37,882 nucleotides of DNA from Patescibacteria group bacterium (GTDB lineage: Bacteria > Patescibacteriota > Patescibacteriia > Patescibacteriales > UBA12465): contig JARRBY010000005.1 in assembly GCA_029982795.1 (NCBI GenBank), positions 1 through 37,882 on the forward strand. Reading direction: 5' to 3'. Position numbers and translations under genes: made by a program. Below are positions 11,040 to 21,268 of this stretch, piece after piece; the stretch's first letter is position 1; every line of letters starts with the position of its first letter. The notes below the pieces were generated by a model. That model saw only the letters and a list, made by a program, of their open reading frames with translations. It did no database searches and was not told the DNA's origin.

Positions 11040-11672
11040 TTATTCAATAACTTCTATTTTTGCTATTTTGACGCCAAATTTTTTTGCAGCTTGATAGTCT
11101 TTCATCCAAATATCAACTCGATCAGAATAACGTTGATTCATGCGGTCTCGAACTATAAATACACGATCGCCAAATAGTTCAGGAATTCTAACTTTAGTGC
11201 CAAAACGAAGGAAGTTAGCGGCGATAGTATCCTCTATTTCATGTTCGCAGACATTGAAACCATTGGCGGTTATACAAGGAGTACTATCAGTTTGGCGAGG
11301 GTCAGAATTATAGGCGGTCATAGTATGAAAGCTGGTACTTATTACCTTGATTTCTTTTTCAGCATGAGTGGGTAAAAAGTTCCGTTCTATTGATTCGTCC
11401 ATTGTTTCACTTTTGATTAATAATTCATTACTTATTAAGGAATTATCAATAATTGTGTTATTTGCTGATAAATCATTGCTTTGTGCCACTGCTTGATTGG
11501 CCAGAGTTGGTGTAAAAAATAGGACGAATTGAAAAATACAGGCAATAATAATAAAAAGTAATAAGCTTTGCTTGCTACTGAGAGGAATAATTTCTTCTCG
11601 CAACAATTTCATTTGTTTCATATAGATTAATTTTCTTAAATAAAAAATCCCTAGCATAATCATAATTATCAA
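11040..11672 (-). CDS. 3D-domain (double-psi beta-barrel) secreted/anchored protein; start may be the internal MKQMKLL
   Basis: TM near N-terminus; C-terminal TMTAYNSDPRQTDSTPCITANG...FGTKVRIPELFGDRVFIVRDRMNQRYSDRVDIWM. Confidence 0.8.
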   Translation of the reverse strand: MIIMIMLGIFYLRKLIYMKQMKLLREEIIPLSSKQSLLLFIIIACIFQFVLFFTPTLANQAVAQSNDLSANNTIIDNSLISNELLIKSETMDESIERNFLPTHAEKEIKVISTSFHTMTAYNSDPRQTDSTPCITANGFNVCEHEIEDTIAANFLRFGTKVRIPELFGDRVFIVRDRMNQRYSDRVDIWMKDYQAAKKFGVKIAKIEVIE

Positions 11673-12574: not shown

Positions 12575-12593
12575 AAATTTCTTAGACTAAATA

Positions 12594-12626
12594 AAAGAGA
12601 GTCATCAAGGACCCTCTTTTTTTCTT
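12594..12626 (+). terminator. Rho-independent terminator
   Basis: AAAGAGAGTC...GACCCTCTTT with one mismatch, then T-run. Confidence 0.6.
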
Positions 12627-12643
12627 TTTAATTTATTAAATAA

Positions 12644-13057
12644 TTAGCCACTAGTTGTTATTCCTCCTGCCGGAGATGAGCCAAAGGGTAAATTAGCGAA
12701 TACGAAGTAGGTAATGGTGTAGGCAGCTAAAACAATAACTAAACCAATTATGGCACTTGTTATAGTGCCTTGTGCTTTTTTTATCGTCTCTTCGTTACCA
12801 CCTGCTGTCATCCATCTAAAACCAGATACTATGGTTAAACTTAAAAAAATTATTGCCAGAAAACCCAAGATAACTTGAATGCCACGAGCAGCAATTTGTC
12901 CAATTTCAACTTTTCCTAAATTAGCTGCCAAACCAGTTTCTGTAGTCATTTTTTCTAATTCTTGGGGGTTATTTATTAATTGTCCTGAAGCTTGACTGAC
13001 AGCGATAATAGGAAAAATGAGAAGAGAAAAAAGAGCGAGCAAGAAGGATTTCTTCAT
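12644..13057 (-). CDS. TrbC/VirB2-like pilin paralog 6
   Basis: Signal peptide, two TM helices, GFRWMTAGGNEETIKKAQGTITSAIIGLVIVLAAYTIT. Confidence 0.75.
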   Translation of the reverse strand: MKKSFLLALFSLLIFPIIAVSQASGQLINNPQELEKMTTETGLAANLGKVEIGQIAARGIQVILGFLAIIFLSLTIVSGFRWMTAGGNEETIKKAQGTITSAIIGLVIVLAAYTITYFVFANLPFGSSPAGGITTSG

Positions 13058-13061
13058 AGTT

Positions 13062-13511
13062 TTATAAAATTAAATTAACAAATATAAAGTTCCAAATAGT
13101 CCAAGCTGAGAGGGTGAGAATTAAACCAATTACAGCGGAAGTTAAAGATCCAGTTGCTTTTTTTACCGTTTCTGGATTACCACCTGATGTCATCCATCTA
13201 AAACCAGCAATAACTGTTAAAAAAATAAAGATAAGACCGGTAAGACTAAGTAAAGCATTAATAACAAGGCCAACTATTCTTGGAATAGAGGTAGTATTTT
13301 CATCAGTTGAATAGCCACTTTTTTTAGCAATATTTTCCATGCGATTAAGAAGATGATTGCTATTACTTGATTGTATTTCTCCACTTTCTTCAAAATTTAA
13401 ATCTTGAAATTCTACATTTTGTTCTACTTGAGCATAGCTGGCGTTGGTTAAAGGTAAAATTAAAAAAGCACTGAAAACAATAAGAAGATAGAATTTAAAT
13501 TTATTTTTCAT
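13062..13511 (-). CDS. TrbC/VirB2-like pilin paralog 5
   Basis: GFRWMTSGGNPETVKKATGSLTSAVIGLILTLSAWTI. Confidence 0.75.
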   Translation of the reverse strand: MKNKFKFYLLIVFSAFLILPLTNASYAQVEQNVEFQDLNFEESGEIQSSNSNHLLNRMENIAKKSGYSTDENTTSIPRIVGLVINALLSLTGLIFIFLTVIAGFRWMTSGGNPETVKKATGSLTSAVIGLILTLSAWTIWNFIFVNLIL

Positions 13512-13515
13512 ATTT

Positions 13516-13920
13516 TTAATTAGCTATTACACTAGCTAGTATTCTTGAAATCCAAGAACTAAGAGCGTAGGCAGTTAACACTATAACAAGACCAATACTT
13601 AAGGATAAAATTTTCTTTTGCGCTTCTTCAATCTTTTCTTTATTACCTTGGGCCGTCATCCAATTATTACCCGCTAAAAACATTAATACTAAGAAAATTG
13701 TACCTAAGGCTGTCATCACCATTCTAATAATTGAGCTTATTATATCATCTAAACTGTTGGTAGTATTAATATCAGTTTGGTCAACAATTTTATTTATATT
13801 TTCATCGTATTCATTTCTTTTTTCAGTATTTAAAAAATCTGCTCTTGTGGGATTGGCAAAAACAAAGGTTATGATAAAAAATAATAGAATCAGCCCTTTT
13901 TTTGTAATTACCTTTGTCAT
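13516..13920 (-). CDS. TrbC/VirB2-like pilin paralog 4
   Basis: GNNWMTAQGNKEKIEEAQKKILSLSIGLVIVLTAYAL. Confidence 0.75.
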   Translation of the reverse strand: MTKVITKKGLILLFFIITFVFANPTRADFLNTEKRNEYDENINKIVDQTDINTTNSLDDIISSIIRMVMTALGTIFLVLMFLAGNNWMTAQGNKEKIEEAQKKILSLSIGLVIVLTAYALSSWISRILASVIAN

Positions 13921-13923
13921 ATT

Positions 13924-14325
13924 TTAAATAAAGTAAGAAATAAGAAAATAAGAAATGGCGTAGGCGGCAATAGTAATAACTAGACCAATAATAGCATTAA
14001 TAAGGCCTTCTTGGGCTTTTTTTATCGTTTCTTCATTACCATTTGACGTCATCCATTTAACACCACTGAAAATAATTAAGCCAAAAAATATTACCCCAAC
14101 TAAACCTAAGATAGCGTAAATAATGGTGCCAATAATACTATCCACGGTTTCCGCGTTTTCACCGGTGGCAAATCCGGCTTCTTCACTGGTTATATTAAGT
14201 CCGCTATCATTGTTAAAATTAAAGCTTTGGGCGGCAACGATACTTAAAGGCGCTAGAGTTAAAACAAAAAAAATAAAAGAAAAAGTTAAAGCTATAAGTT
14301 CTTTTTTTCTAATAAATTTAGACAT
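13924..14325 (-). CDS. TrbC/VirB2-like pilin paralog 3
   Basis: GVKWMTSNGNEETIKKAQEGLINAIIGLVITIAAYAI. Confidence 0.75.
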   Translation of the reverse strand: MSKFIRKKELIALTFSFIFFVLTLAPLSIVAAQSFNFNNDSGLNITSEEAGFATGENAETVDSIIGTIIYAILGLVGVIFFGLIIFSGVKWMTSNGNEETIKKAQEGLINAIIGLVITIAAYAISYFLISYFI

Positions 14326-14326
14326 A

Positions 14327-14731
14327 CTAATTTAGTATTTCGTTACCGATAAATGAGGTAATAGCATAGGCAGAAAAGACAATGATTAGGCCAATAATAC
14401 CATTCATTAACAAATTCTTAGCTTTAGCTACTTGGGTTTCATTTCCTTGAGCTGTCATCCATAAAATACCAGCATAAATCATCAGAACCAAAAATAAGAC
14501 ACCAACAAAAGATAGAACTGTACCAATTATTTGACCAGCTTTAGTTTGTAAAAAGTTATCGTAGTTTGCGTTTGCACCAGTTTGTGTCTTAAAAGCCTTT
14601 ACTGCGCCGGCAGTTTCATCCAAGCCTTCTAAAGGATTATATTCTTGAGCTTGTAAGCTATTAACGAAAAAAGCACCATTTAGAAGAAATATGCTTAGAA
14701 TAACTAGAAATATAGTTTTTTTTATTTTCAT
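14327..14731 (-). CDS. TrbC/VirB2-like pilin paralog 2
   Basis: GILWMTAQGNETQVAKAKNLLMNGIIGLIIVFSAYAI. Confidence 0.75.
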   Translation of the reverse strand: MKIKKTIFLVILSIFLLNGAFFVNSLQAQEYNPLEGLDETAGAVKAFKTQTGANANYDNFLQTKAGQIIGTVLSFVGVLFLVLMIYAGILWMTAQGNETQVAKAKNLLMNGIIGLIIVFSAYAITSFIGNEILN

Positions 14732-14743
14732 AAAAATAATTTA

Positions 14744-14804
14744 CACTGGTCTGGAAACAAAAAATTGCGTCCAAACCAGTGATTCCCAATTTTACTGAGA
14801 ATCA
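14744..14804 (-). other. Tandem stem-loops between pilin paralogs 1 and 2
   Basis: CACTGGTTTGGA/TCCAGACCAGTG (12 bp, one G-U) and TGATTCTCA/TGGGAATCA (9 bp, one G-U) in the minus-strand transcript. Confidence 0.65.
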
Positions 14805-14875
14805 CATATTATTATTTATAATATATAAATAATTTTCAGTAGTAATCTTTTCTCGTTATATTAAAGAAATAAGCA

Positions 14876-15262
14876 TTAGACACCACTGGTAGCATTATAA
14901 ATAGCATTAATAACGAAGGTGGAAATTGCCCAAGCTGCTAAAATAATAACTAAACCAATAACTCCGGCTCCTAATATTTGCTGAGCTTTAGATACTTTTT
15001 CTTCGCTACCACCTGCTGTCATCCATTGAAAACCTCCCATTAAGATGATACCCACAGCAATTACTCCTAAAAAGCCAAGAACAACGTTGATGATGCTACC
15101 AACAATTTCTCTCGGATCACGGTTTGATAAAGCATTGTCTAAACCATTATTAACTTGATTTAAACCAAAATCAGCTTGTGCTGATACCTGTACAGCAAAT
15201 ACAGGGGTTAATAATAAAGCAACGATAGCAATAGACAATAAGTGTTTGTAAATTTTTTTCAT
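14876..15262 (-). CDS. TrbC/VirB2-like pilin paralog 1 (lead gene, candidate major pilin)
   Basis: Signal peptide ending VSAQA; GFQWMTAGGSEEKVSKAQQILGAGVIGLVIILAAWAI; strong SD. Confidence 0.8.
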   Translation of the reverse strand: MKKIYKHLLSIAIVALLLTPVFAVQVSAQADFGLNQVNNGLDNALSNRDPREIVGSIINVVLGFLGVIAVGIILMGGFQWMTAGGSEEKVSKAQQILGAGVIGLVIILAAWAISTFVINAIYNATSGV

Positions 15263-15267
15263 ATTTT

Positions 15268-15337
15268 CACCTCCTTTCTTAAGTAATAATATTTTATTTA
15301 TATTCTTAATTCTAGCATATTATTTTTAACAAGACAA
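15268..15337 (-). promoter_or_regulatory. Promoter and Shine-Dalgarno of the pilin lead gene
   Basis: Minus strand: TTGTCT, 17 nt, TAGAAT (TGC before it, extended -10); AAAGGAGGTG 5 nt before ATG. Confidence 0.7.
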
Positions 15338-19429: not shown

Positions 19430-19885
19430 TTAATATTTATTAGATCCAGCCGGAGTAGTCGCTTCTACTTCTATTTCTAAAGAATCATCTGCAACTGTAC
19501 TTGCTCCCAAGGAAGTGATAACAAAACTAATAATTAACCAACTTGAAAAGACAATAACCAAACCAATCACTGCGGAGACAATCACTTGTTGCGCTCTTTG
19601 CACTTTTTCTTTTGATCCGGCAGAAAGCATAAACATTACTCCACCAATAACAAAGGCAAGTAAGGAAAGGGAGCCAACTAGACCAAGAATTATATCAGAT
19701 ACGTTAACCATCATTTTAACGATATCATTAACTTCATAATTTCCACAATAAGTGGCGTCACCTTCATCACAATTTTCTCCACTTGCTTCTATTAATAAAG
19801 TTTGGCCATAACTAAGGGTGGGAATAGATAGTAAAGCAAAAGAGAAGACTAAAATAATAAGTATATTTTTTATTATATTTTTCAT
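19430..19885 (-). CDS. TrbC/VirB2-like pilin paralog 7 (diverged)
   Basis: Signal peptide; GVMFMLSAGSKEKVQRAQQVIVSAVIGLVIVFSSWLI. Confidence 0.7.
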   Translation of the reverse strand: MKNIIKNILIILVFSFALLSIPTLSYGQTLLIEASGENCDEGDATYCGNYEVNDIVKMMVNVSDIILGLVGSLSLLAFVIGGVMFMLSAGSKEKVQRAQQVIVSAVIGLVIVFSSWLIISFVITSLGASTVADDSLEIEVEATTPAGSNKY

Positions 19886-19888
19886 ATT

Positions 19889-21268
19889 TTAGTAAATTGT
19901 TTGTTGTACTTTAACAGCGCCATTTGTAATTATTTTACGCATATCTTCTTCGTTATTGCTTAAAACACTATCTATCATTTCTTTAAAGGCCAATTCAGCC
20001 GCAGTTACATTGCGACCTTTGTACCAACTTTTAGCGGTTAAAACTTGATCGGCAAAAACACCAACCACATCATCTTTAATTTGTTCTGACACAAGTGATC
20101 TTAAAGCGGTTGGTTTTTGGGTTTTAGCTAAATAAGTTTTGGCTTGTTCTGCTTGGGTCATAAATTGAATAAAATCCCAAGCTTCATTTTTATGCTTACT
20201 TTTTTTAGAAACCGTTTCCACCCAATAATTAGCAAAATTGATATTAGTTGGTGGATTGCCTTCAATTTGCGGAAACTTAGCAACAGAGAAATTTAATTTT
20301 GGTGCAGCTGTTTTAATGGTAGGAATATGATAAGCATAACCAAACATAAGAGCAAGATTGCCGTTTATAAACATCTCCAGGGAATTATCCATTTCACTAT
20401 TCCAGGTATAAGACTCTTTGGTGGGATTAGCAAAATCAGTGTAGAAACGAAGAGCTTCTAAACCGGGGTTGTAGTTAGTTTCTTTAGCAAATTCAGGAAT
20501 AAGTTGAAAGGAGACTTTTAAATCATCATTTATCATTGTGGCCCCATTTTGCATCATTAAAAGACTCAAAATATCGCTAAAACGTTCGATATTATCACTA
20601 CTACCCATGGCTACCCCTGATTGAATTAAACCTTTTTTAGGATCTTGTTTTGTTAGTTTTTTTACTGCTTGTAGAAATTCACGATTCCAATATTTTGGTG
20701 GTTCACTAATACCAGCATTATTAAGCAAATCTTTGTTATAAAACATGGCTAAAGTGTCAACAGAAAGAGGGAGACCATAAACCTTGTTATCTTCTAAGAC
20801 CACATCATTACTGACAACATCAACAAAGTTATCTCTAATTTCACGTAAGGTGATACTGGGCGTATTTCTGATTTCATAAACAATTTCCTTTTTAATTGAG
20901 CCTTTTTCCACCGGATAAACCATGGAGGTGAAATCAGGCATAGGTTCAATTTTTGTTTGGTATTTTCTAATCCACGTATTGTGAATGGAAAATATATCCG
21001 GTCCTCTATCTTCAGCTAATGCATTTAATAATTCTTGTTCGTACTCTTCATAGCGTAATTTTCTATAGTCAATGGAAATAGATGGGTGCATGGCGGTATA
21101 TTTTTGGATTATTTCTTCAAAGGCATCCGGCCCTTCAAAGACACGCCAGTATGATAAAGTGACAGGCTCCATTTTTTCAATTTCAACGCTATTATCTATT
21201 TTGCAACCAAAACCAGAACTAATTAAAAAAATGGCAAGCAGTACTAAGAGGCTAATTTTTTTTCTCAT
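19889..21268 (-). CDS. Extracellular solute-binding lipoprotein (sugar ABC type)
   Basis: Lipobox SSGFGC; VTLSYWRVFEGPDAFEEIIQKYTAMHPSI; GLPLSVDTLAMFYNKDLL; AWDFIQFM. Confidence 0.88.
   Translation of the reverse strand: MRKKISLLVLLAIFLISSGFGCKIDNSVEIEKMEPVTLSYWRVFEGPDAFEEIIQKYTAMHPSISIDYRKLRYEEYEQELLNALAEDRGPDIFSIHNTWIRKYQTKIEPMPDFTSMVYPVEKGSIKKEIVYEIRNTPSITLREIRDNFVDVVSNDVVLEDNKVYGLPLSVDTLAMFYNKDLLNNAGISEPPKYWNREFLQAVKKLTKQDPKKGLIQSGVAMGSSDNIERFSDILSLLMMQNGATMINDDLKVSFQLIPEFAKETNYNPGLEALRFYTDFANPTKESYTWNSEMDNSLEMFINGNLALMFGYAYHIPTIKTAAPKLNFSVAKFPQIEGNPPTNINFANYWVETVSKKSKHKNEAWDFIQFMTQAEQAKTYLAKTQKPTALRSLVSEQIKDDVVGVFADQVLTAKSWYKGRNVTAAELAFKEMIDSVLSNNEEDMRKIITNGAVKVQQTIY

Follow-up and report, generated by a model that had tools for sequence, protein, structure and literature searches.

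A six-gene array of VirB2-like pilin paralogs in a Patescibacteria genome: a possible mixed type IV secretion pilus with a marked major subunit

The pilin array and its surroundings

The window, i.e., the whole stretch of 37,882 nucleotides analysed here, is one contig (C16) of a 669 kb Patescibacteria genome that is 98.8% complete. Between positions 12644 and 15262 it bears six consecutive minus-strand ORFs coding for pilin paralogs of 128, 134, 133, 134, 149, and 137 aa, and both the coordinates and the size range (128-149 aa) given in an initial annotation made from the sequence alone were confirmed exactly. In the order of transcription, the genes, hereafter designated slots 1 to 6, are separated by 144, 1, 3, 4, and 4 nt, in agreement with the spacing of 1-4 nt already reported for genes 2-6. 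The conserved W-M-T loop, the conserved second transmembrane segment and the divergent N-termini described at the same time are visible in the alignments. The features of the locus are as follows:

14876..15262, minus strand: slot 1 pilin, putative major pilin, 128 aa; PF18895, 34.7 bits; conserved class-wide; strong Shine-Dalgarno sequence in 19/19 family genomes
15268..15276, minus strand: Shine-Dalgarno sequence of slot 1, AAGGAGGTG; pairing energy -12.9 kcal/mol
14740..14809, minus strand: two-hairpin RNA element in the gap between slots 1 and 2; covariation; model R1, 68.4 bits, E 4.9e-12 in its own genome; without Rfam match
14327..14731, minus strand: slot 2 pilin, 134 aa; PF18895; slot assignment
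13924..14325, minus strand: slot 3 pilin, 133 aa; PF18895; slot assignment
13516..13920, minus strand: slot 4 pilin, 134 aa, the least conserved slot; PF18895; slot assignment correct in 18/19
13062..13511, minus strand: slot 5 pilin, 149 aa; PF18895; slot assignment
12644..13057, minus strand: slot 6 pilin, 137 aa; PF18895; slot assignment
12593..12620, minus strand: hairpin resembling an intrinsic terminator, placed where the array ends (3′); 11 pairs and a T-rich tail
19430..19885, minus strand: slot 7 pilin, 151 aa; PF18895, 33.9 bits; class-level layout
19889..21268, minus strand: SBP_bac_1-type solute-binding lipoprotein, ending 3 nt before slot 7; PF01547, E 2.4e-35; adjoins pilin arrays elsewhere

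A profile search of the whole genome retrieved 12 genes of the PF18895 type, seven of which lie in the window, the others being two lone genes on contigs C1 and C4, two genes for giant proteins on C6 and a gene on C25 coding for a protein of 379 aa. The latter (L016:8342-9481) combines a PF18895 module with a C-terminal region that resembles a VanY/M15-type peptidase by eye, without a Pfam match there. Another protein, encoded at 11040-11672 of the window, is conserved immediately 3′ of the array in most loci of the family, and its C-terminus looks like a 3D (double-psi barrel) domain, again by eye and without a Pfam match.

Five genes lie between slot 7 and the array in its own family; slot 7 adjoins slot 1 in most of the class, where the typical order is a solute-binding lipoprotein gene, one or two slot-7-type genes, a slot-1-type gene (in most loci), and a variable number of other pilin genes. 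All 12 loci fetched at class level with sufficient flanking sequence have the lipoprotein gene (19889-21268 in the window; L080-L091 and L096-L098 elsewhere) upstream, as do G154, G155, and G156, which are not members of the class, and the 17 loci of the family that extend to this position. Slot 7, the lipoprotein and the array represent one ancestral operon. A classical role of the lipoprotein in sugar import is doubtful because a search for the BPD_transp_1 permease, which is present in 14/14 control genomes, found none in the genome of the window.

Family membership and secretion machinery

All six array proteins score above the gathering threshold of PF18895 (T4SS_pilin; 34.7-46 bits against 26.6), slot 7 reaching 33.9 bits, and a match shared by six genes is not a product of chance. 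Matches to TrbC (PF04956) were obtained for 15 of 36 slot-1 homologues at E ≤ 0.01 (best E 8.6e-7); slot 2 of the window reaches 15.5 bits, below the cut-off of 27.9. The HMM search supports the initial assignment to the TrbC/VirB2-like pilins, and it is these weak sequence matches, not the fold, that support the kinship. The best NCBIfam match of slots 1, 6, and 7 is NF045849 (Mbov_0395 pilin-like conjugal transfer protein of mycoplasma ICEs), which covers the hairpin at 24.8-30.2 bits, below its cut-off of 40. Slot 1 is predicted to form a helical hairpin after the signal helix (pLDDT 76, pTM 0.50). A fold search with this model, a helical hairpin being an uninformative query, yielded no match in the PDB at E ≤ 0.001, solved conjugative pilins included, and the slot-1 profile matched nothing among the sequences of solved structures. 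The likeness to TraA of the F plasmid and VirB2 of the T-pilus lies in the signal peptide and the two-helix hairpin with its short loop, whereas both of these pilins are described as homopolymers and neither by sequence nor by fold did slot 1 match a solved pilin significantly. The initial annotation had itself raised a holin and an assembly error as ways in which it could be wrong. Holins and other non-pilin families gave weak, sub-threshold matches only (Holin_9, E 0.044), and an assembly artefact is ruled out, as some 20 further genomes carry the array too.

The same annotation, having seen neither a VirB4 nor a VirD4-type gene in the window, had suggested that the machinery is encoded elsewhere. 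No VirB4 or coupling-ATPase match was indeed found inside the window, and the whole-genome search led to contigs C25, C24, and C17. C25 carries a VirB4 above the cut-off of NF045971 (CD1110-family), a PrgI/VirB3 (35 bits against a cut-off of 27), a protein with a weak TraC match upstream of VirB4, and a putative VirB6 and a possible VirB8-like protein, both named by position and inspection alone; C24 and C17 each hold a coupling-ATPase candidate. VirB4 and PrgI/VirB3, the pair that marks a patescibacterial T4SS with monoderm (MPF-FATA) kinship, are both encoded in the genome. The stretch of C25 that holds VirB4 also contains ORFs that look RecG- and RadA-like on inspection. The lineage of the array presumably belongs to class ABY1. 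In that class, recG and radA are reported beside T4SS loci (PMC12102498). A pilin gene adjoins virB4 in 1135 published assemblies (PMC12102498), which is not so here, the nearest pilin gene on C25 being more than 20 kb off.

These data bear on the possibility that the six proteins are membrane hairpins of a secretion channel or a surface layer that never build an extended pilus, slot 1 being simply an abundant surface protein. We consider it unlikely given the PF18895 and TrbC matches, a signal peptide and two-helix hairpin of the kind seen in conjugative pilins, and the VirB4, PrgI, and coupling-ATPase genes of the same genome; it draws on the uninformative fold search, on a family module that also anchors large ectodomain proteins, and on reports of monoderm T4SSs without pili (PMC12102498).

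Translation signals and an RNA element at slot 1

The strength of the Shine-Dalgarno sequence sets slot 1 apart from its siblings, with pairing energies of -8.3 to -12.9 kcal/mol in 19/19 family genomes; the medians of slots 2-6 lie close to zero, and that of the 27 other genes of the window is +0.6 kcal/mol. Among 80 named loci, whose genomes overlap with those used for training, a pairing energy reaching -5 was found for 66% of the slot-1-class genes vs. 4% of the slot 2-6 genes. T4SS pilins are reported among the highly expressed genes of related Paceibacteria (PMC10936435).

The RNA element consists of two adjacent hairpins 3′ of slot 1, for which 89.8% of the cells pair in an alignment of 19 genomes. 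Two-sided changes affect 18 of the 23 pairs, and the observed values were reached by 0/500 shuffles and 0/6 slid controls; since the structure was read from the same 19 sequences as the covariation, the held-out test weighs more. A covariance model built from 18 genomes found the element directly 3′ of the slot-1 gene in 15/18 held-out genomes, with a best E of 5e-6 or lower. The sole other match of the model in the window's own genome is the antisense of the same palindromes, and G-U pairs together with lower antisense scores favour an RNA rather than a DNA palindrome. No Rfam family was matched in a search with the element. It is also found 3′ of slot 1 in another family of the order (G046), and it is repeated along with repeated slot-1 genes in G028, L157, and L168. 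Of the three sense matches in G028, one sits at the beginning of a contig and precedes a slot-1 gene. At L157:1910-4069 and L168:2458-3935, several slot-1-type genes stand in tandem, some each with their own copy of the element. A weak match on contig C15 of G028 (E 0.02) has no pilin gene nearby and was taken as chance.

The position of the element, after a gene with good initiation signals and ahead of genes with weak ones, would also suit an ordinary transcription terminator of slot 1, with slots 2-6 expressed from a promoter of their own and no dosage device involved. T-rich tails do follow the element in some relatives, and promoter-like matches occur nearby, yet these are no commoner than in shuffles. 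Such a terminator appears rather improbable to us: in the window's own genome a terminator is called after slot 6 and not at the element, the post-slot-6 hairpins of relatives carry the usual A- and T-tracts, like ordinary terminators, and two adjacent covarying hairpins exceed what a terminator needs. The element may instead act by stabilisation, processing or attenuation of the message.

Fixed slots within the family

The array was fetched from 21 genomes of the family, the window's own included, 19 of which contain exactly six array genes and two of which (G021 and G022) contain seven. The slot-6 gene of G014 (L060:1923-2687) codes for two pilin domains in one frame. Between six-gene family genomes, the best match comes from the corresponding slot in 95-100% of comparisons for slots 1, 2, 5, and 6, in 85% for slot 3 and in 32% for slot 4, and leave-one-genome-out profiles assigned 113 of 114 genes to the correct slot, at a mean identity of 36% among the paralogs of one genome. 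The dN/dS ratios per slot are 0.06-0.20 between G000 and its relative G010, rough values from a single species pair with dS >1 in four slots, and they indicate purifying selection in this one close pair. The fixed number and order of the slots, their one-to-one orthology and the low dN/dS in one pair argue against a diversifying bank in this family; the copy-number comparison thus went against the diversified or stepwise-expanded bank of the initial annotation. Outside the family, arrays comprise 6-8 genes in the order and more or fewer across the class, so that the five minor pilins are not universal. Beyond the class, the profile scores are too low for slot orthology to be called.

Arrays of this kind have been described on a large scale, with 441 arrays of 2-11 VirB2-like genes, 25% identical on average, in 383 Patescibacteria assemblies, for which host versatility was suggested by analogy with Bartonella and Anaplasma (PMC12102498). 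The present array has in common with them the tandem PF18895/VirB2-like genes, the low mutual identity, and the monoderm-type T4SS machinery in the genome, and differs in lying away from virB4. Tandem pilin duplication is likewise known from the trwL (VirB2) copies of the Bartonella Trw T4SS, but these are interpreted as variants of the pilus that diversifying selection acts on (PMC2610397), whereas the array described here is fixed in number and order within the family. A diversifying repertoire of alternative pilins, whose paralogs vary the pilus surface for different hosts as with trwL, would fit the 36% identity within a genome, the strongest divergence in the N-termini (outside by analogy with the F pilus), the variable array length outside the family and the published suggestion for Patescibacteria (PMC12102498), but the fixed, ordered and one-to-one slots of the family and the low dN/dS of the pair compared make it the least probable of the alternatives, and a poor candidate.

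Giant proteins with a slot-1-type module

Two neighbouring genes on C6 specify large proteins, one of 889 aa and the other of 819 aa or more, in which Big_5 or TIG domains come after a pilin module. Over 127 aa these modules share 47 and 54% identity with slot 1, which makes them more similar to it than any of its siblings in the array. Long open frames that match PF18895 are found side by side in pairs in other loci of the family and the class as well, and Ig-like or TIG domains are present in the two pairs inspected (896 and 1950 aa; 654 and 3296 aa). Giant pairs with an N-terminal pilin module and Ig-like/TIG ectodomains, of up to 3296 aa, are located at L014:3-5160, L211:2117-10701, and L212:979-12830. 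In the F pilus, the loop of the pilin points toward the lumen and the termini are outside (PMC5018250), and because of this outward orientation the filament could display an ectodomain that is attached C-terminally to a slot-1 module.

A model for a mixed pilus

To our knowledge, each of the solved conjugative pili is built from a single pilin species. The best reading of the array described here, to which we assign a probability of about 0.5, is a fixed heteromeric VirB2-like set in which slot 1 is the major pilin and slots 2-6 are fixed minor pilins, their unequal dose being brought about by the Shine-Dalgarno sequence and the RNA element. The features on which it builds are legible in the DNA itself: the pilin family, the fixed order and number, the low dN/dS of one pair, the Shine-Dalgarno contrast, the covarying element tied to slot 1, the machinery genes and the giants' kinship to slot 1. 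Slot 1 would be translated from its strong Shine-Dalgarno sequence to give an abundant major pilin, the RNA element would stabilise or process the slot-1 message or limit read-through, and slots 2-6 would be produced at a lower dose through coupled translation as non-interchangeable minor pilins. Polymerisation into a filament of a given stoichiometry is what we infer from this arrangement, with VirB4, PrgI/VirB3, the putative VirB6 and VirB8 and the coupling-ATPase candidates as the likely assembly machinery. If the F pilus is a guide, the conserved loop would line the lumen and the variable termini would face outward, and giants with a slot-1-type module and Ig-like ectodomains may enter the filament as tip or side adhesins.

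The complete proposal is put forward more tentatively, the odds lying somewhat against it: a heteromeric T4SS pilus of one major and several obligatory minor VirB2-like pilins, whose ratio is set by a previously undescribed two-hairpin mRNA element, and giant adhesins that are the major-pilin module fused to Ig-like ectodomains. The heteropolymeric pilus first envisaged in the initial annotation is nonetheless a reasonable inference; what that annotation missed is the unequal expression signals, the RNA element, the giants of slot-1 type, and the seventh pilin and the lipoprotein, which both go back to the ancestral operon of the array.

Significance for Patescibacteria

A T4SS pilin cluster is essential for the epibiotic growth of Ca. 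S. epibionticum, the one Patescibacterium tested (PMC10633639), and this cluster, a VirB2-like array comparable to the present one, is described as six pilins (PMC12857230). The array reported here is itself of an already published kind, and what appears to be new are the fixed slots, the signals that mark a major pilin and the RNA element; the portions of the literature on Patescibacteria arrays available to us do not mention slot orthology, slot-1 expression signals or the RNA element. Should the model be confirmed, the element would count as a novel regulatory element, and the major pilin gene could be recognised by it in a simple way at the DNA level. From a set that is fixed and ordered and in which one major subunit is marked, one would expect an obligate mixed pilus of defined stoichiometry, as opposed to the host-range variation favoured in the published comment.
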